Positions 22,214-41,388 of a stretch of 64,000 nt of DNA are shown here, piece by piece. The stretch's first letter is position 1; the number at the start of each line of letters is the position of its first letter. The stretch comes from Phytohabitans houttuyneae (lineage in GTDB: Bacteria; Actinomycetota; Actinomycetes; Mycobacteriales; Micromonosporaceae): contig NZ_BLPF01000004.1 of NCBI RefSeq assembly GCF_011764425.1, positions 62,001 to 126,000 on the forward strand. The letters run 5' to 3'. The notes below the pieces were generated by a model, which had not been told where the DNA came from, did no database searches, and saw only the letters and a program-made list of their open reading frames with translations. Made by a program: the position numbers and the translations under genes.

Positions 22214-22240
22214 CGATCACGTCGGGAGTATGGTCCCGAT

Positions 22241-23195
22241 ATGGCGGACACGCCGGCTCTCGCGGAGCCACCGGTCGAGCGGCTGAAAGGGCTGCTCTAC
22301 TTCACCGACGGCTCGCTCGCCCTACGCCGGCCACTACCTGCACGAGGGCTCCCACCCGGTGCACACGCACAGCTTCGTGGAGATCGCGGTCGTCACTGGC
22401 GGCGACGGCGTGCACCACTCACTCGCCGGCCGTCGGCGCCTGCGCGTCGGCGACGTGATCCTGCTGCGGCCCGGCGTCTGGCACGGGTACGAGGAGTGCG
22501 CGCGGCTCGACGTGTACAACTGCTGATTCAGCACCGAGCTGCTGCACCGGGAGCTGGCCTGGACCCGCGAGGACCCGCTGCTGAGCTACCTGCTCTGGAC
22601 CGGGCCGCACTCCATGCAGCGCCGCGGCATGCTCACCGCCAGCCTCGACGGCACCGCACTCACCGAATGCCTCGATCACCTCGACGCGCTGGACCGCCTA
22701 CGTTTAGCCCCGGTCGCCATGCACCGCGGCGACATCATCGGCCGCCTTTCCCTCTTCCTGAGCAACCTGGGCCGCGCGGTGGCCGGCTCCCGCGAGGGCG
22801 GCGCCGAGCCGGCCGGCCCGACCCACCCGGCGGTGGTCGAGGCGATGCGCCTGCTGGAGGCGAGGCCCGCCCACCGCTGGACGCTGACCGAGCTCGCCGC
22901 CGACCTGCACCTGGCGCCCGGCTACCTGGTGCGCCTCTTCAAGTCGGCGACCGGCCTGCCGCCGATGGCCTACCTTTCGCAGCACCGCGTGGAGACGGCG
23001 GGCACGCTGCTCCTGCACACCGACCTGCCGATCACCCAGATCGGCCGCATGGTGGGCTGGCCCGACCAGAACTACTTCGCCCGCCGCTTCCGCGCCCACT
23101 ACGGCCTCAACGCCACGACCTACCGCAAGCAGTTCACCCACACGACCGCCCGCCTCCGCACCTGGCTCGCCGACGGCACCGCCACCCCGAACTGA
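22241..23195 (+). pseudogene. AraC-family regulator, broken by a frameshift and an in-frame stop
   Basis: The pieces rebuild a cupin-type AraC regulator of about 317 residues. The start (MADTPALAEPPVERLKGLLY) is in one frame; from YAGHYLHEG onward the sensor cupin is in another, the shift lying at the CCC 22320-22322. That frame then meets TGA at 22524-22526 inside LDVYNC*FSTELL, where relatives typically have a second Cys. The C-terminal part (22614-23195) has two intact helix-turn-helix motifs (LTELAADLHLAPGYLVRLFK; PITQIGRMVGWPDQNYFARRF). Two independent lesions, one not an indel, argue for real decay rather than a sequencing slip. The HTH fragment might still be made from the ATG at 22614. 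Confidence 0.8.
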
Positions 23196-23220
23196 CCAGC
23201 ACACAACCCACCAGATGGGA

Positions 23221-23512
23221 GCTACCGCGATGCTCGCGGTGGTGCGGACCGTTGCTCCCGCGGCCTCACCCTCCGCAGGCGGCAAGCTCAGCCCGAGTGC
23301 GCGAGCCCGCCCGCCGTTCGGCACCATCGTCGCGGTCGGTGACTGTCGATCAGGTGCAGGCGGTGTGAGCTTCGAAATCTTGGTGAGTTAGCGCGCCATT
23401 TCGACGCTAGCTTGCCAAGATCTGCCGAGCGGGTTCCTGGGTTGAGCTGGGCGACCGCGGAGAGTGAGGCCGCGGGAGCAACGGTCCGGACCGCGACGGG
23501 CGTCGCGGTAGC
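23221..23512. repeat. Large inverted-repeat element with internal hairpin (MITE-like)
   Basis: Two 56-base arms, 23221-23276 and 23457-23512, are inverted copies identical at 49 positions; the inner 32 bases differ at only one. Between them, 23377-23393 and 23405-23421 form a second hairpin with 17-base arms (14 matches) around an 11-base loop. The nested palindrome occupies the gap between the ends of the AraC pseudogene and FxsT. It has no coding capacity. It could be a miniature mobile element or a dispersed palindromic repeat that also terminates both genes. No target-site duplication was found by eye. Confidence 0.75.
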
Positions 23513-23560
23513 CCGATTCTGTTGTGGGTTGAAGCTCTGCGGGCGGCGAGCCCAAGCCGT

Positions 23561-26500
23561 CTACGTGGGTGGGGGTTCGAGGTCGCAGCTCAGGCGGGAC
23601 CAGTTGGCGGCGGCCACGGTGTTCGGGTGGTCCTCGCCGAGCAGGCGGCGGTAGATGTTCAGCATCGACTCCATCAGCGCGTTGCCGCCCTGGCGGTCGC
23701 CGTCGGCGCGGCGGCTGATCGCTAGGTTGCTCCCCGCGGCCAGCGTGTCGGGGTGTTCGGCGCCGAGCACCTGCCGGATGCGGGATAGGCCTGCTCGTCG
23801 CTGGCGCGTGCGCCGCTGAAGTCGCCGGACTGGAAGAGGTCGTCGCCGGAGTTGACCACCGCGGCCAGTGTGTACGGGTGCTCCGGGCCCACCGTCGCGG
23901 TGAAGCGGTCGACCACCTTCCGGGTCAGCTCGCGGGCCGCGGTGACGTCGCCGGCCTTGCGCATGAAGATGGCGAGGTTGTTGCCGTACGCCAGCGTGAA
24001 CGCGTGGTCCTCGCCCATCGACGACCGGTACCACTCGTAGACGGGCGTGGCGCGGCGCCGGGCGCTCAGGTCCTGGCCGAGGGCGGACTCGTCGCAGGCG
24101 AGGTTCATCGCGCAGGCGAGCGAGTCGGGGTGCTGCGGCCCGTGCACCCGCAGCGAGCGGGCCAGCGTGTCGGTGCTCAGCGCGTACGCCTGCTCGAACT
24201 CGCCGAGCTTGCGCAGCGTCACCGCGAAGTTTTTCGCCGCCCGCAGCGACTCGGGGTGGTCCTCGCCGAGCACGCGGCGGTGGCCGTTGAGCGCGGTCTC
24301 CAGTACCCGCCGGGACTCGCGCAGGTCACCGTTGTCGCGCAGGTCGCGGCCGTAGTTGCCGGCCGAGTAGAGCGTCCACGGGTGCAGCTCGCCGTGCACG
24401 GCCCGGCGGCGGCGCAGCGTGCGCTCCTGGAGAATCAGCGCCGCCCGCAGGTCGCCGACGAGGCGCAGCGAGATGGCGAGGTTGTGGCCGGCGGTGAGGG
24501 TGCGCGGGTGCTCCTCGCCGAACGCTTCGCGCCACCGCGACTCGATCTGCTCGTCGAGGTCGCGGGCCCTGGTCAGCTGGCCGAGCGCGCGCAGGTCGGC
24601 CGCGAGGCCGCCGCCGGCCATCAGCGTGTACGGGTGGTCGTCGCCGGCGGTACGGCTCAGCCGGCCGTAGACGTCGTCGTCGATCGCGTACGCCGCGTTG
24701 TAGTCCGCCTGCAGGCGCAGGGCGCAGGCCAGGTTGTACCGCATCATCAGCGTGGCCTGGTCGTCCGCGCCGTACTCCCGCTCCCACTGCGCGATCGCCT
24801 GCTCGGCGTACGCCTGTGCGGTGGGGTAGTCGGAGATCTTCCACAGGTACCGGCCGACATCGAGCACGAGCTGGCGCACGTGCGGCGAGTCGGAGTCGAG
24901 CACCCCGGACGGCAGCAGGTGCGGCCACAGGTCGGCGTAGAGCGGCCAGTACTCGGCGTTGTCGGCGTCGCCGGGGTTGGCAGCGGCCAGGATCTCGTGT
25001 ACCTGATGCTGGTTTTCGGTCCGCTCCTCCGGGCTGAGCGTGGCCCGGATGATGGTCTGCATCAGGCGGTGCAGCTGGATGCTCTGGCCGCCGCCGTCCT
25101 CACCGCGGTCGGCGATCCGCCGCCGCACGGAGGAGTTGGCACCGGGCCGGCCGGAGTCGATGCGGGCCAGCGCGTACCGGCTGATCTCGCGCATCGCGCG
25201 CCCCATCAGCATGCGCTCGCGCAGCGACGGGTCGAAGGGGAGCAGCGCCTCGATGAACCGGTCACTGTAGACGAGCGAGACCGGGATCGGCTCGGGTGCG
25301 AAGAACGCGCAGATCTCCAGGAGCTTGGCCGCGGCCGGGCTGCGCTGGCGGAGGCTGTCGAGCGACACCAGCCAGGGCTGCGCGGAGCTGGCCTTGTAGT
25401 CGGGGGCAGCTCCTCTTCGAGCATCCGCAGCGGCTGCGTCTCCAGCAGCTCCAGGTAGTGCGAGACCGACATCGCGGTGGCGGCCAGCCACGCGCCGGCC
25501 TGCTCGATGGCGAGCGGGAGGTCGCCAAGGCGTTCGGCGACGAGGTCCGCGTCGGCGTCGGCAAGGTGCGGGATCCGCCGGTGCAGGAAGGCGACGCTCT
25601 CCTCGCGGGCGAACACGCCGACCTCGACGACGTGCGCCTCCCGGGCCCACGCCTGGTCGCGCGTGGTGATGAGGACGTGGCCGGGGCCCTGCGGGATGTA
25701 CTCGCGGAGCTGGGCCGGGTCGTCGGCGTTGTCGAAGACGAGCAGCCATCGGCGGTGCGGGCGGCCCTGGCGCAGCGCCTCCAGCCCGGCGCGCACCCGC
25801 TCGGTGACGCTGTCGCCGGTGGGGACGCCGAGCTGCTCGGCGAGGGCGGCAAGCGACGAGCGGACGACGCTGGTCTGCTGTGCGGAGACCCACCACACCA
25901 CGTCGTAGTCGGCGCGGAAGCGGTGCGCGTACTCCAAAGCGATCTGGGTCTTGCCCACGCCGCCGAGGCCGTGCAGCGCCTGCGGCACAACGGCGGCACC
26001 GGTGGCGGAGAGGCGGTTGCGCAGCGCTTCGAGTGTGCGGCGCCGCCCGGTGAACGTGCCGTTGCGCTGCGGGACGCTCCACAGTGGTGGCTCGAGCGCG
26101 GGGAAGCGCCGGCGCGGCGTGCCGTTGTCGTCCTGCACGGAGGCCGCCGGGCGCGGGTACACGGGCTGGTCGAGCGCCTCCAACAGCGCCTCGACGGCCC
26201 GCTGCTCGGTGAGGCCGGCGAGGTCGACCGGGATCCTGTCGTGGAAGGGCGGACCGACGCGCACGTTGTCGAGCCGCACCGGCACGAGGAACGGCGCGCC
26301 GCTCACCGGGTCGCGGCTGGCCAGCAGCTTCCACAGCTCGGCCGCGTTGGGCGACTGGACGTAGTCCTGGGACAGCAGCACGATCGCGCGGGTCGCGTCG
26401 GCCAGCAGCGCGGGCACGTCGCCGCCGGTGTCGGAGTCGGCCGGGAAGTCGACCTCGCGCATCGCGACCCGCAGGCCGGCGTCGTCGAGCTCGCCGCTGA

Positions 26501-27553
26501 TCCACTCCGCCCACATCCGGTCGACCGCCGCGTAGCTGATGAACACGTCGGAGGTACCGGCCGTGCGGCGCCGCTCGAACGCCGCGAGCCACCGCCGGCG
26601 CACCCGCTCGTCGAGCGGGACCATCTGCTCGACGTCGCCGTCGGTGACCACCTTCGCCAGCCGCTCGTACGCCGCGAGCAGCGAGTTTTCCTGGCGGGAC
26701 CGGTCGCCGAAGGCTGACAGGATCTCCTCGTACGCGTAGAACGGCTTGTACGGGATCTCGACGTCGCCCCAGTACTGCTCGACCTCCTCGGGGAGCGGCG
26801 GCTGAGGAACGGCGCGAAGCTCTGCCGGGCGTAGTCGCGGCCGGCTTCCAGCTTGACCTGCTCGGCGTCCTCGACCCGCATCGGTACCGGCAGCAGCCGC
26901 ACCGGGCGGTCGGTGCGCTGCCGCGCGATCGACTTCGCCACGGAGAGGGCGCCGTCGATGCTCTGCGCGTTCATCGTGAAGCAGTCGACGACCACGTCGG
27001 GCAGGCGCACCGTGCAGATGCCGCCGCCGTCACTCACGCCGGTGCGGCTGTCGATGAGCGCGTAGTCGTAGTTTTCCCGCATGTTGCGCCGGAGGGCGTC
27101 GAGGAACGTGTTGCCCGCCATCCGCTCGTAGAACGCCGACCAGTCGAACGTGCTGACCACCCGCGTGTACGACGAGTCCTGCTGCCCGGCCGGGAGGAAG
27201 TCGAGAAAACCCTTGTCCGGGAACTGCCAGTCGAGCGAGACCGCGTAGCGCAGGACGTCGGCGTGCGAGGCGAGCCACTCGGTGGTCTCCGAGTCGTGGA
27301 TCGGCTGCATCATCGCGGTCGCGTAGTCGCGGATCATGTCGATCACGCCGGGCGAGGTGCGCAGCTGCTTGTCCAGGAGGAACGGGTGGTAGTACTTGTG
27401 CAGGCCGGGAGACTCCAGGTCCCAGTCGACGGCGAGCACGCGCTTGCCCTGGCTGGCCAGGATCCACGCCAGGTTGGCCAGTGCCATGGTGCGGCCGGTA
27501 CCACCCTTGTACGAGTAGAACGTGACGATGGTGCCGCCGCCGCTCTCCGTCAC
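23561..27553 (-). CDS. fxsT: FxsT-like protein: MinD-type P-loop, TIR, NB-ARC and TPR domains (three frameshifts)
   Basis: Restored length is about 1330 residues. Order: SIMIBI/ParA-like ATPase with the deviant Walker A KGGTGRT and the [11 protein letters not shown] motif (1-250); TIR domain starting [11 protein letters not shown] (about 334-460); NB-ARC with Walker A GLGGVGKT (about 530), Walker [12 protein letters not shown] and a [15 protein letters not shown]-like motif; then about ten 42-residue TPRs of the kinesin-light-chain/TPR_12 type ([21 protein letters not shown]). This matches the FxSxx-COOH system TPR protein family. GTG start at 27553 follows an AGGGGAGG site. Shifts lie near 26803, in the G run 25402-25406 and near 23790; each is fixed by one extra base. 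It would act as a STAND-type switch: sensing by TPR, oligomerising by NB-ARC, signalling by TIR. Confidence 0.85.
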
Positions 27554-27581
27554 GGTCGTGCCTCCCCTGTAGACAAAGCGC

Positions 27582-28807
27582 TCATGGCGCGTCGAGCATG
27601 GGGCGGTCGGAGCTGACCTCCCCGTCCGGCCGCCGGTGGACGTGCCCACTGACGAACATGCGGTTGACCGCCACCTGCAGCACGGCCGGCAGATCCTGCT
27701 CGAACGCCTGGTAGGTGGGGATGTTGGACCGGTAGAGCTCGTCGTCGTCCGCCGTACCGCGGAAGATCCGCCGGCACTCCTCGGAAAGCCGGCGCCAGTG
27801 CTGCACGGTCTCGCGGTCGTCGAGGCTGCGCGGGATCAGCACCGCGGTCGTCGGCTCGCGCTCGCGGATCTCCCGCGCGTTGTACGCCGTCAGCACGCGG
27901 CTCGCCTCTTCGAGCTCGGTCGCCCACACGTCGACGAGCAGCACGACGATCTGGTTGTGGCGGCTGGCGAGCTCGGCCCGCTCGGCCAGCTCCTCCAGGT
28001 CGGCCACGCGGGATGCGAAGCGCTGGCTCTCGGCGATGGCCGACGCGTACTCGGCGAGCGGGCTGGGACGCACCGGGTGGTAGGGCGCCCAGTCCCGCGG
28101 GCGGTCGCCGTACACCGCGCGGTCGGAGCGGACGGAGAGGGCTTTGCTCCGGGTCAGCGCCGCGACGACGAAGTGGACGGTGAGGGCGTCCGAGTCGGCG
28201 TCGCGTTCAGAGCCGTTGAGGGACTCGACGGCCGGCTGCGGCGTGTGGAAGATGCTTGGCGCGCTCTCCAGGTCGGGATAGCTGTGCCCTTCCGGGATCG
28301 GGTGCGTCTCGGCGCTCTCCACGATCTGGCCGGCCAGCTCGAAGACGAACTCGCGATAGGCGTCCTGGTGGCGCTGCAGCCGCATCAGCTGCCGCACGCA
28401 GGTGTCGCCGAGCAGGTCGGAGGAGAACTGGATGCGGGCCGCTACGGGATGCATCTTGCCGGGTGGGAGGGGCACCCAGAGCAGGGGCTTGAGGACTGAG
28501 GGGTCCAGGCCCATCTCTTCCTCGTAGCGGGCGACGCGGTCGGCGAAGATCTGCCACTCCTGGCCGCAGGGTCGGCTCAGGAAGTAGCGGGGGACAGCAA
28601 CGCGATGAACGAACGGCATTGGGAAAGGGCCTCGGCGAGCTCGGCCGACCAGACCGTGCCCGCCTTCATGCGGGCGTCGATGAAGCCCACTTCGGCGTCT
28701 TTGTGCAGGCCGGCCCGGACACGCACTTCGACGCTGAGATCGTTGAAGAACTGCCGGACCAGGTCGTCTTCGTCGCCGCGGGCATAGCTGAGAAAGAAGT
28801 ACAGCAA
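27582..28807 (-). CDS. fxsC: TIR-like protein FxsC, frameshifted
   Basis: Restored to about 408 residues. The N-terminal TIR-like domain begins LYFFLSYARGDEDD and continues through EVGFIDARMKAGTVW, ALSQCRSFIALLSP and, after the frameshift, RYFLSRPCGQEWQIF with the Glu expected of the TIR active site. The C-terminal part (IVVLLVDVWATELEEA; NIPTYQAFEQDLPAVLQVAVN) is the FxsC C-terminal domain. The break is in the G run 28589-28593 and one extra base repairs it. I chose TTG at 28807, five bases after GGAGG; GTG at 28813 would overlap the ribosome site. The stop is 28 bases before FxsT. Known FxsC proteins accompany a radical-SAM-modified peptide ending FxSxx; that peptide is not seen here. Confidence 0.82.
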
Positions 28808-28931
28808 TCGCACCTCCGAGCCGGGCTTGGCCGGTCCAACCCCGGCGCTGCCGGGCGAAGCGCTCCGGCACCGAGAGACACTTAACGGTGAGTATAAATG
28901 GCAGAACCAAGGGCGACAGGCCCCAAAGCGG

Positions 28932-29405
28932 TCAGGCTCGGTGGGCCCCGGCCGGCCACAGCACCACCACGGGCAGCCCTTGCGCACGCGCCGTGCCGAC
29001 CACGTCGGCGGTGTCGCCGAGCTTGCGGGACGGCAGCCCGTCCCAGACCGCAAGGAGCAGCTCACACTGGCGCAGGACCTCCTCGCTGGCCGCCTTGAAC
29101 GCCCGCCGGTCGGAGTGGCGGAACGGCATCCGCGACACGTGTGCGGCCTTGCCCAGCAGGCGGTCGAAGTCGTCCCGGTCGACAAGTCGCTCCCGGTAGT
29201 CGTCGGCCGGGAGCACCACGGCGAGGTCGCCGCCCCGCTCGATCACCGCCTGGGCGAAGATCTGGTCGGCGCCGTCACACAGGCAGGTGATGCCGCACAG
29301 CTTGTCGCCCTCGTGCTTGCGCAGCTCAGCGGCGATGGCGTCGGCCACGAGGGCGGCGGTGTCGCCGGCCAGCCGAGCGTGTCCGGTGATCCCGATCCGC
29401 GCCAT
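28932..29405 (-). CDS. Soluble SLOG-superfamily protein
   Basis: A 157-residue Rossmann-like protein starting MARIGITGHARL, with LCGITCLCDGADQIFAQAVIERGGDLAVVLPADDY in the centre and LLLAVWDGLPSRKLGDTADVVGTARAQGLPVVVLWP near the end. The strand-loop-helix at GITGH and the WDG..GDTADVV segment match the SLOG layout of nucleotide-binding proteins. Its ATG overlaps the stop of the KTN-RyR gene by one base (TGATG), so the two are coupled and probably act together. No catalytic role can be assigned; binding or trimming of a nucleotide signal is the usual prediction for the family. Confidence 0.7.
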   Translation of the reverse strand: MARIGITGHARLAGDTAALVADAIAAELRKHEGDKLCGITCLCDGADQIFAQAVIERGGDLAVVLPADDYRERLVDRDDFDRLLGKAAHVSRMPFRHSDRRAFKAASEEVLRQCELLLAVWDGLPSRKLGDTADVVGTARAQGLPVVVLWPAGAHRA

Positions 29406-31126
29406 CACGAACCTTCCCTCATCCGCACGATGCGAAAGCCGGAGTCGGCCAGCATCGCGGGCAGCTCGCGGATGGCGTCGGCGTTGACCGTCCGGAGGCT
29501 CTCCGGCAGGTCGGCCCAGCGCCGGATCGCCGGATGCAGCATACGTTCGTCGTCGCGCTCTTCCGCGAACCGCCAGCCCTCGCGTAGCCGTGCCCGCAGC
29601 CACCGCTCGTGCTCCATCGTGGCCAGTCGGGTCACCTCGGTCGTGGTCAGCGTGTGCTCGCCGCCGGCCGCCACGCGGGGCGCGAGCACACAGTCGATCG
29701 CGCGGAGCTTGCGGCCGATGTCGGCCGCCTGCGCGCGGTTTTCGCTCTTGAGCCGGTCGGGCAGCCGCTGCCAGGGGACCATGGCCGGCGTCTCGTCGAA
29801 CCCGTCGCCGCGCCGCTGCCGGGCGATCAGGTAACTCTCGTGTATGACGCGGGCCAGGCGCTCGCCGAGGTCGTCACGGATCATGGTCGGGTCGCACGCC
29901 GCGTCGACGACGCCGAACAGGCGGAGGGTGCCGGAGACCTCGTCGAAGAGCCGCTCGTCGCGGGCGCCGTCGAAAGCGCTCTGCAGCGTCGCGAGCTGGT
30001 CCTGGCGGACGATCACCGTGCCCGGGCCGCCCCGCCACAGCCGGTCGGCGATCAGCGCGGTCTTCAGCGCGAGCTGCTCGTCCTCCAAGCAGATGAACAC
30101 CCGGTCGGGTGGCTCCGGCGTCCCCTCCTCGGCGAGCACCGCGAGCAGGTTCTCGTCGTACGGCGTCAGGTCGCAGGACTTGCTGAGGAACGGGTACCGG
30201 AACGTCAGCTCGTCGACCAACTGGGTGGCCGCGTCGTCGACCACGGACACCTCGACGCGCCACATGGCCGCCGGTGCGAGCACCCGCCACTGCCGGGCCA
30301 GCTCCACGATGATCGCGCGGCCGAACGTGGTGGCGCCGACAACGAGGAAGCGGGGCGGCCGGTCGAGCGGCGGGATGATCGGGTCCTTGGCGAGCAGGTG
30401 GCGGGCGGCCAGGTCGTCGGCGTTGAAGAAGTCCAGCCGGATCGCCGGCGGCTCGATGGTGCCGAGGTGCCGTGCCTGCAGGGCCAGGCAGAGTTCGGGG
30501 TCTTCCACCTGGGCGTACACGGCAAGCGGCCGCTCGCCGCGCTGCCGCCGCCCGGCCGCGAGAGCGATCGCGGTGTTGGTGGCGCTGTCCTCGGTGCACG
30601 CGTAGAGGGCGCTGGCGTGCGCGACGCCGGCGGCGCGCAGCACGTCCGGGTTACGGGCGTCGCCGAGCACCCACAGCGGCTGGCGGCGGCCGCGGTCGGG
30701 CGGGTCGCTGCGGCTATCGGCGACGTGAACCACGCGGTTGCCGCTGAGGCGCAGCTGCCGGGACAGGCTCGTCGCCATCGGCCCGTCGCCGCAGATCACC
30801 ACGTGGCCGCGCGCCCGGCGGGCGCGCAGCCGCTCAGCCTCCGCCGCGAAGACAAGCCGCAGGGCCTCGACCAGCGCGTAGAAGGTGACGGCCGGCGCGG
30901 CGAAGCGGGCGATCTCCAAAGTGATCGGGTACGCCCCGGCGCCACCGGCCGGCGGCAGCTCCAGGACGAAGAGCTGGAACGAGTTGTAGAGGACATCGGT
31001 GAACCGGGCGGAATCACCCATATACTGATGAAGGCCTATGTATCCAAACAGGAGGGACAGGACCGCCGCGGCGGTGAAGAGGGCGCGCATGCCGACGACA
31101 GGGGTGTACCGCTTGTCGCCTGCCAT
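29405..31126 (-). CDS. KTN (TrkA-N) NAD-binding membrane protein with C-terminal RyR domain
   Basis: The 573-residue protein opens with two membrane helices (about 13-33 and 72-94) separated by a loop that resembles a channel pore region but lacks a TVGYG-type selectivity filter. A KTN Rossmann domain follows (HVVICGDGPMATSLSRQL, 108-126; VVHVADS; VLGDARNPDVLRAAGVAHA), then a second Rossmann-like region (RFLVVGATTFGRAIIVELA, about 254-272). The last 65 residues match a ryanodine-receptor (RyR) repeat: MEHERWLRARLREGWRFAEERDDERMLHP, then LPESLRTVNADAIRELPAML. KTN domains bind NAD(H) or nucleotides and gate ion flux; RyR domains occur in bacterial conflict-system proteins. First gene of the cassette. 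Confidence 0.8.
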   Translation of the reverse strand: MAGDKRYTPVVGMRALFTAAAVLSLLFGYIGLHQYMGDSARFTDVLYNSFQLFVLELPPAGGAGAYPITLEIARFAAPAVTFYALVEALRLVFAAEAERLRARRARGHVVICGDGPMATSLSRQLRLSGNRVVHVADSRSDPPDRGRRQPLWVLGDARNPDVLRAAGVAHASALYACTEDSATNTAIALAAGRRQRGERPLAVYAQVEDPELCLALQARHLGTIEPPAIRLDFFNADDLAARHLLAKDPIIPPLDRPPRFLVVGATTFGRAIIVELARQWRVLAPAAMWRVEVSVVDDAATQLVDELTFRYPFLSKSCDLTPYDENLLAVLAEEGTPEPPDRVFICLEDEQLALKTALIADRLWRGGPGTVIVRQDQLATLQSAFDGARDERLFDEVSGTLRLFGVVDAACDPTMIRDDLGERLARVIHESYLIARQRRGDGFDETPAMVPWQRLPDRLKSENRAQAADIGRKLRAIDCVLAPRVAAGGEHTLTTTEVTRLATMEHERWLRARLREGWRFAEERDDERMLHPAIRRWADLPESLRTVNADAIRELPAMLADSGFRIVRMREGS

Positions 31127-40558: not shown

Positions 40559-41388
40559 CTCGTCTCCAGCCGTCGCAGTGCCGCCTCCAGGTGGGGCGGC
40601 AACCGGCGGCGATGTCGCATGACCCAGGGCAGCTCGGCGAGCGCGTCGTGGAGGCCGGCACGTCCGTCCGAGGTGGACAGCGCCCGCGCCGCGTCGCGTA
40701 CCGCCCGGGTCGCCGGCCGGCGCAGCCAGGTCGTGAGCAGGTCGTTGCGGATCTGTTGCCGCCGCCGCGCCGCCGGGTCGCGGCCGTTCGGCACGGGCAG
40801 GTGACGCACGACGAGGGACGGCAGGTAAGCCAGGCCCCACCCCTGAGTCGCCAGGTCCATGGCGAGCAGCGCCTCCTCGCCGTACACGTGGAGCTTGGGC
40901 TGGAACCCACCGACCGCGAGAAACACCTCCCGCCGGACCACCGCGCTGCAGGCGAGAAAGCCCAGCACCGACGGGCCAGGCTGGGTCGGCATGGTGCCGA
41001 GCGGCGCGGTGGCCATCCCCGCCGAGACCGGGTCGAGCTTCGCGGTGGGCCCCACCAGCACGCGAGCGGCCAGCAGCGCGGTACTGGGATGGCGGTCGAG
41101 CGCGCGGGCGGCCTGTTCGAGCGCGTCACCGTCCCAGTAGGAGTCGTCGTCGGCGAACGCCACGTACGGCGTCTGCGCCAGGGCCACACCGACGTTGCGG
41201 GCGGCCGCGCCGGCGTTCACCGGCAGGCGCAGCACCCGCACCTGGGGAAACCGCGCCCGGACGGCGGCCGCGCTGCCGTCGGTGGAGGCGTTGTCGACGA
41301 GTATCACGGGCGCCCGGTGCCGCGGCAGCGTCTGCAGCAGCTGCTCCCGCCGGTTGTGGCTGGCTACGACGACCGTCACTTTGCGCAC
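40540..41388 (-). CDS. Family 2 glycosyltransferase
   Basis: The 282-residue enzyme has the GT-A pattern: TVVVASHNRREQLLQTL, VILVDNASTDGSAAAV, NAGAAARNVG, AFADDDSYW (the metal-binding DDD) and FLAVGGFQPKLHVYGEEALLAMDL. It transfers a sugar from a nucleotide donor, probably to an envelope glycan. No membrane helix is evident. GTG start at 41388. Confidence 0.9.
   Translation of the reverse strand: MRKVTVVVASHNRREQLLQTLPRHRAPVILVDNASTDGSAAAVRARFPQVRVLRLPVNAGAAARNVGVALAQTPYVAFADDDSYWDGDALEQAARALDRHPSTALLAARVLVGPTAKLDPVSAGMATAPLGTMPTQPGPSVLGFLACSAVVRREVFLAVGGFQPKLHVYGEEALLAMDLATQGWGLAYLPSLVVRHLPVPNGRDPAARRRQQIRNDLLTTWLRRPATRAVRDAARALSTSDGRAGLHDALAELPWVMRHRRRLPPHLEAALRRLETSQAAVG

Follow-up and report, generated by a model that had tools for sequence, protein, structure and literature searches.

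The window is a 64,000 nt stretch of the Phytohabitans houttuyneae genome (contig NZ_BLPF01000004.1, positions 62,001 to 126,000), within an assembly of 11.3 Mb in five contigs. It carries two adjacent intact genes, one for a membrane protein that joins RCK/KTN and RyR domains (KTN-RyR) and one for a small protein of the SLOG fold (Table 1). Judged from gene order in related and distant genomes, KTN-RyR and SLOG form a conserved two-gene unit. It is quite possible, and is proposed here tentatively, that the pair serves a conflict system centred on nucleotides as its readout module at the membrane. The FxsC and FxsT genes beside it have the appearance of a broken, species-specific insertion next to the conserved pair. 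A preliminary description of this DNA had treated all four genes as one cassette. Its coordinates, gene order and common strand were right, as was the TGATG overlap of KTN-RyR and SLOG, both of which are intact; the cassette as a unit is rejected, because the FxsC/FxsT block is not conserved in Phytohabitans or in the wider set of loci.

Table 1. Features of the window, and RelA/SpoT proteins with a terminal RyR domain at other KTN-RyR loci (L numbers)
Feature	Position	Strand	Remarks
KTN-RyR, intact, 573 aa	29405..31126	-	One open reading frame; two predicted N-terminal transmembrane helices, two RCK/KTN Rossmann domains, tandem RyR C-terminus
Canonical RyR domain, residues 495-569	29420..29644	-	H506, W509, H531, N548 (N548 at the position of RyDEP D117)
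SLOG-fold protein, intact, 157 aa	28932..29405	-	ATG overlaps the KTN-RyR stop as TGATG, 29407-29403
FxsC (TIR-like), broken	27582..28807	-	Frame change near 28590; outside conserved unit
FxsT (KGGVGR ATPase / TIR_2 / NB-ARC / TPR), broken	23561..27553	-	Frame changes near 26790, 25406 and 23786; outside conserved unit
AraC-family regulator	22241..23195	+	HTH part 22614-23195 (Pfam); apparent frame change near 22321; inside variable block
Variable block, SLOG to esterase gene	22220..28928	.	Absent in P. suffuscus; different gene in P. flavus and Phytohabitans L148
RelA/SpoT protein with terminal RyR	L117:11764-14316
RelA/SpoT protein with terminal RyR	L100:7812-10403
RelA/SpoT protein with terminal RyR	L112:11691-14198
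RelA/SpoT protein with terminal RyR	L129:15867-18539
RelA/SpoT protein with terminal RyR	L130:1792-4641

The KTN-RyR and SLOG pair

Domains were searched with Pfam, PADLOC and NCBIfam profiles. KTN-RyR is matched in Pfam by TrkA_N (E 4.6e-14) and RyR (E 7.1e-13), and long N-terminal helices, taken as transmembrane, are predicted at residues 9-37 and 68-104. The structure model of the protein contains two helices and two RCK domains, resembles GsuK and TrkA, and gives a strong match to the RCK gating ring; its C-terminus is modelled as a tandem RyR domain resembling Repeat12 of human RyR3. The profile match and the Repeat12 fold together place the protein in the RyR family, PF02026. Likewise, a TrkA_N match over the cut-off and the gating-ring structure match are in keeping with the RCK domain of an RCK-gated K+ channel. 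No match to the SLOG protein was found in Pfam, PADLOC or NCBIfam at a limit of E 0.01, and its best sequence match in the PDB was no lower than E 0.17. Its model has the SLOG Rossmannoid fold, similar to YpsA, ThsA and TRPM, which places it in that superfamily.

KTN-RyR was surveyed in 298 genomes of the order, from which 20 loci were fetched with their flanks, and in 78 named loci; the residue alignment has 79 rows. Within the order the distribution is patchy, with 21 of the 298 genomes positive (window genome counted). The named rows span ten phyla according to record titles; single phylum assignments are not certain, because many rows are metagenome-assembled genomes and two near-identical rows carry different phylum names. 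Neighbouring SLOG, TIR, NUDIX and DUF4062 families were scored over the 78 loci with local profiles. By this measure SLOG is present in 42 of the 78 loci, and it lies within 1 kb of KTN-RyR in 40 of 76 scored rows (window excluded). Five of six Phytohabitans genomes carry KTN-RyR, and SLOG adjoins it in all five.

The position of SLOG relative to KTN-RyR varies. It is downstream in the Micromonosporaceae, convergent in Amycolatopsis (L092), and upstream in Ignavibacteriales (L095), Bacteroidales (L101) and Anaerolineales (L114). At L095 and L101 the gene before SLOG encodes a protein in which RyR is matched over two stretches, with weak matches to AAA or nSTAND, and in Chloroflexi L104 a single open frame carries both RyR (4.6e-19) and a match to the SLOG profile. 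Pfam did not confirm the 'PfkB-like' N-termini considered for some of the RyR proteins.

Ligand residues of the RyR domain

According to the available part of a 2026 preprint (PMC13232231), RyR domains of phage (RyDEP) bind 2′/3′ cyclic ADP-ribose (cADPR) through the ligand residues H75, W78 and H100, with H75 and D117 forming a catalytic dyad. H506, W509 and H531 of the window protein have the same spacing as the three RyDEP ligand residues, as would be expected of a binder. The RyDEP-type glycosidase dyad is not present in the window KTN-RyR; H506 is retained and the aspartate is replaced by N548. Across the 79 aligned rows H506 is found in all and W509 in 78, and the site of H531 holds H in 56 rows, S in 9, T in 9 and N in 4, with one row unaligned.

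Asparagine occupies the D117 site in 40 of the 41 rows with SLOG within 1 kb (window included) versus 3 of the 36 rows without it. Because the catalytic acid of RyR is nearly always asparagine beside SLOG, this pattern suggests that SLOG-linked KTN-RyR copies may bind a nucleotide without cleaving it. The association of asparagine with SLOG is suggestive only. As an independent statistical result it was discarded, being not significant after correction for kinship.

Neighbourhoods and proposed role

The Pfam TIR_2 profile was searched across whole genomes for 31 of the 78 loci, chosen after the neighbour lists had been seen, and matches were assigned to loci by coordinates. These 31 genomes hold 157 TIR_2 matches in 196 Mb; at least 19 of the matches fall in the flanks of 13 of the chosen loci, compared with 0.49 expected. 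The genome of Frankia sp. CIT1 (L098), with an assembly of 5 Mb, has 33 TIR_2 matches; the count is 0 to 8 in each of the remaining 30 searched genomes. Eleven neighbour candidates, read as TIR, TIR-like or SLOG-like, were put to Pfam. Six have TIR_2 (L066, L101, L109, L114, L119 and L129), and Pfam TIR_2 is missing in the other five (L059, two at L064, L105 and L108). At the Anaerolineales/Chloroflexi locus L114, SLOG, KTN-RyR and two TIR genes are found together. In Mycobacterium, a protein convergent to KTN-RyR combines TIR_2 and a PknH_C-like domain (L109:11665-13173).

Pfam matches also identify RelA_SpoT-RyR proteins near KTN-RyR at five loci (Table 1). Each of these has a NUDIX match by local profile, which Pfam confirms at L117 and L129. 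The prokaryotic SLOG family of TRPM type, LSDAT_prok, matches the RelA_SpoT-RyR protein just over the cut-off in L117 and just under it in L100. DUF4062 proteins occur at 15 of the 78 loci by local profile, several of them in other families, and the protein at L041 is DUF4062-NACHT-HEAT by Pfam. Together with FxsT-like proteins, DUF4062 proteins are the recurrent large neighbours among the Micromonosporaceae.

From the gene pairing, domain content, residue conservation and neighbourhoods observed, together with the predicted folds, we infer a ligand, a direction of signalling, a pore activity and a role in defence as follows. KTN-RyR would be a channel-like protein with two transmembrane helices, a gating-ring-like core of two RCK domains and a tandem RyR, and SLOG would be its soluble partner. 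NAD+ would be converted to an ADP-ribose-type nucleotide by an enzyme encoded nearby or elsewhere in the cell, such as the TIR proteins present in a fair share of the distant relatives. Binding of this nucleotide by RyR and/or SLOG would change the membrane protein, through pore opening, clustering or altered ion flux, and the change would lead to growth stop or death of the infected cell. The pair would be constant, and its partner, whether it makes the signal or senses the trigger, would be exchanged. The preliminary description likewise had SLOG/KTN-RyR as the membrane reader of an NAD-derived nucleotide; for the two genes this idea is supported by the fold, the RyR ligand residues and the TIR, NUDIX and STAND neighbours, and for the four genes together it is not borne out.

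A number of observations weigh against a readout role. The local TIR profile is positive at 17 of the 78 loci, 14 of the 36 SLOG-less and 3 of the 42 SLOG-bearing ones; in SLOG-bearing Micromonospora it gives zero matches, and tblastn finds the TIR part of FxsT in L074, L081 and L121. TIR linkage is thus mainly with SLOG-less relatives, which argues against a simple TIR-to-SLOG link. In P. suffuscus no TIR, DUF4062 or FxsT match lies within 10 kb of the pair, and the local TIR profile has zero matches over the same distance in P. suffuscus or P. flavus. PADLOC gives no match to the pair. On the tree, the link between asparagine and SLOG reduces to five independent contrasts, of which on average 4.0 agree, 0.1 disagree and 0.9 show no difference (sign test, p 0.125). 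Confidence in the KTN-RyR model (predicted local distance difference test, pLDDT) is 58-79 across residues 11-90, and the whole-length structure match to GsuK has a root-mean-square deviation above 10 Å. The K+ selectivity filter motif is TxGYG, and no motif of this type was found in the window KTN-RyR; a loose version occurs in 2 of the 79 rows. Pore activity is therefore no more than a proposal, and the identity of a canonical K+ channel was rejected on the missing motif. Searches by tblastn gave no KTN-RyR match in the plasmid collection (E 1e-10) or in the phage collection (E 1e-3; IMG/VR lay outside the search), and transport of KTN-RyR on mobile elements was rejected on these negative results.

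KTN-RyR/SLOG could instead be an ordinary ion-homeostasis protein, in which RCK senses NAD(H), ATP or ADP and RyR/SLOG adenine nucleotides, with no immune role. The strength of the gating-ring match fits this explanation, as do the animal Repeat12 structures matched by KTN-RyR, which contain AMP-PCP, ADP or ATP (entry titles). Collinearity of the genes upstream of KTN-RyR across Phytohabitans, and the lack of a partner found in P. suffuscus, point the same way. However, the patchy distribution within the order, the TIR, NUDIX and STAND neighbourhoods in other phyla and the missing K+ filter make it unlikely. A second alternative takes the RyR domain as a signal-ending enzyme: like phage RyDEP, it would cleave isomers of cADPR, and it would keep TIR signalling in check at the membrane. 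Both dyad residues, H and D, are present in 30 of the 36 SLOG-less rows, and it is the SLOG-less copies that more often have TIR neighbours. The asparagine of the window and of nearly all SLOG-linked rows is contrary to cleavage, and other RyDEP homologues tested in the preprint did not cleave, as reported in its available part (PMC13232231); a signal-ending enzyme is decidedly unlikely.

The proposed readout module shares with Thoeris a TIR-made ADPR-type signal, which there acts on a SLOG sensor in one type of ThsA and on a membrane effector in the other (PMC11204291, available part). It differs in having RyR and a separate SLOG as sensors and a membrane part of RCK type. Additionally, no SIR2 or macro family, as in ThsA, is among the matches listed for KTN-RyR and SLOG, and an intact TIR gene beside the effector is lacking in the window, where FxsC and FxsT are frame-broken. 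The best-supported account, a membrane effector gated by an ADP-ribose-type nucleotide, would work like a Thoeris effector, but the features compared do not make KTN-RyR/SLOG a member of Thoeris. GsuK, MthK and TrkA share the gating-ring fold and, by prediction, the two transmembrane helices; KTN-RyR lacks their selectivity filter and adds the tandem RyR and the SLOG partner. With phage RyDEP, as far as the available part of PMC13232231 describes it, the shared features are the PF02026 domain and the H, W, H spacing, whereas RyDEP is a phage counter-defence protein with a catalytic aspartate and KTN-RyR a bacterial membrane protein with a tandem domain and asparagine.

The RyR tandem and SLOG have the folds of animal RyR Repeat12 and TRPM MHR1/2, respectively. 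In animals RyR and TRPM are two separate channels; the bacterial locus joins both domains with a small RCK protein. It is conceivable, although we regard it as doubtful, that widespread bacterial membrane proteins gated by ADP-ribose-type nucleotides unite at one locus the sensors of two animal channels with links to NAD metabolites, RyR Repeat12 and TRPM2 SLOG, with TIR, STAND and RelA/SpoT-RyR partners swapped around a constant membrane effector, and that animal channels took their sensors from such systems. SLATT is a separate family of two-transmembrane (2TM) proteins, and nucleotide-responsive 2TM effectors of the SLOG/SLATT kind were reportedly treated in Burroughs 2015 (NAR). SLATT and KTN-RyR are alike as 2TM effectors driven by a nucleotide signal, the latter differing in its two RCK domains and RyR. 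In its available part, PMC7159879 treats SLATT as a pore-forming 2TM effector that responds to nucleotides, and it assigns to FxSxx-type systems an AP-ATPase that has TIR at its N-terminus; the ideas of a nucleotide-driven 2TM effector and of an FxSxx TIR-ATPase are therefore prior to this work. The KTN-RyR/SLOG pair was not named in the titles and abstract openings of the literature searched, Burroughs 2015 being outside that scope. The terms RyR and TrkA have no occurrence in the available parts of PMC9503650, PMC7159879 and PMC8195603, nor has KTN in those of the last two.

The module looks like a distinct form of nucleotide-sensing conflict effector and like a good test bed for questions about RyR and TRPM ligands. 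It has long been asked whether ryanodine receptors respond directly to nucleotides derived from NAD. The same question is raised in the closing text of the preprint that gave RyR domains a ligand class, 2′/3′cADPR (PMC13232231, available part). KTN-RyR and SLOG are a small, expressible system for asking whether such a signal can gate a membrane protein through RyR/SLOG domains. If true, the readout role would bring a further kind of sensor/effector to the nucleotide-based immunity of bacteria.

The FxsC/FxsT block

The closest named relatives of the window KTN-RyR are in P. suffuscus (84 %) and P. flavus (83 %), and both have DNA collinear with that of the window, 81-92 % identical to it. With small gaps, the P. 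suffuscus alignment spans window positions 40645 to 28929, three bases beyond the SLOG stop, and restarts at 22219; the 6.7 kb block of FxsC, FxsT and AraC is missing from this collinear site. In P. flavus the slot after SLOG is taken by a gene that Pfam matches to TPR-S and further TPR families, and in L148 by one matching a local profile for which the proteins of P. flavus and Planomonospora were used. The relative at L149 is not collinear on the block side. Among the five KTN-RyR-bearing Phytohabitans, FxsC and FxsT occupy the slot beside SLOG solely in the window genome. A TPR-S-type protein stands straight after SLOG, in the place of FxsC and FxsT, in two Phytohabitans (L059:12276-13586 and L148:11857-13725), and a similar one follows KTN-RyR in Planomonospora (L064). 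A TIR- or deoxyribohydrolase-like start of the L059 and L064 proteins is our own reading; no Pfam TIR family was found there.

Frame breaks were located from open reading frame lists, split profile matches and a codon-bias frame plot. FxsC is matched in two frames by the NCBIfam profiles FxsC_Nterm (9.7e-21 and 5.8e-14) and FxsC_Cterm (1.7e-37). FxsT is read in four frames, with AAA_KGGVGR (7.8e-42) in one and FxSxx_TPR (5.5e-104, 2.7e-179 and 1.7e-16; all NCBIfam) in three further pieces after frame shifts; Pfam adds TIR_2 (1.2e-19) and NB-ARC (7e-11). Pieced together in this way, the family membership of both genes as given in the preliminary description appears secure, the matches being far beyond chance. 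Intact genes they are not, the frame changing once in FxsC and three times in FxsT, and the 'giant switch protein' described for FxsT is not one open reading frame. Six other FxsT copies over the cut-off in the assembly are open over 964-1407 codons (five on contig C1, one on C2), and a further one (C1:667401-669314) is interrupted by an internal stop. Insertions and deletions between the window and other Phytohabitans outside the block are mostly in compensating clusters, with a few that are not, a pattern as compatible with sequencing error inside the block as with its absence. True decay of FxsC and FxsT is plausible; local sequencing error may also be the source of the frame changes.

Fxs or FxSxx-COOH systems comprise FxsA, FxsB, FxsC and FxsT (PMC7159879, available part), and the FxsC and FxsT families are common to these and the window. 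The window copies differ in being orphan and broken. No FxsB was found on their contig (C4), and the 8 matches in the genome, 5 of them over the cut-off, are all on C1. FxsC is likewise absent near KTN-RyR at all 78 named and all 20 fetched order-level loci. At 16 of the 78 loci FxsT-like genes are found no farther than about 10 kb from KTN-RyR, in other arrangements and in one case in Amycolatopsis, and because of these a loose link of KTN-RyR with Fxs systems may be kept. That the four genes are one system, in which FxsT senses, the TIR domains of FxsC and FxsT make the signal and SLOG/KTN-RyR reads it, is very improbable: the shared strand, close packing, FxsT-like neighbours and a Micromonospora locus (L045) with FxsB, aKG-HExxH and FxsT genes near KTN-RyR/SLOG speak for it, but the co-occurrence of the four genes fails on the absence of FxsC, the block missing in P. 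suffuscus, the broken frames of both genes and the location of FxsB. At L045, FxsT and KTN-RyR are separated by uncharacterized genes of 333, 368 and 696 aa (L045:8255-12514), and related genes are found at L039, L044, L047 and L049. The 368 aa gene is limited to L039, L045 and L049, and among the L045 copies it is the 696 aa protein alone that has Pfam matches (AAA_16).

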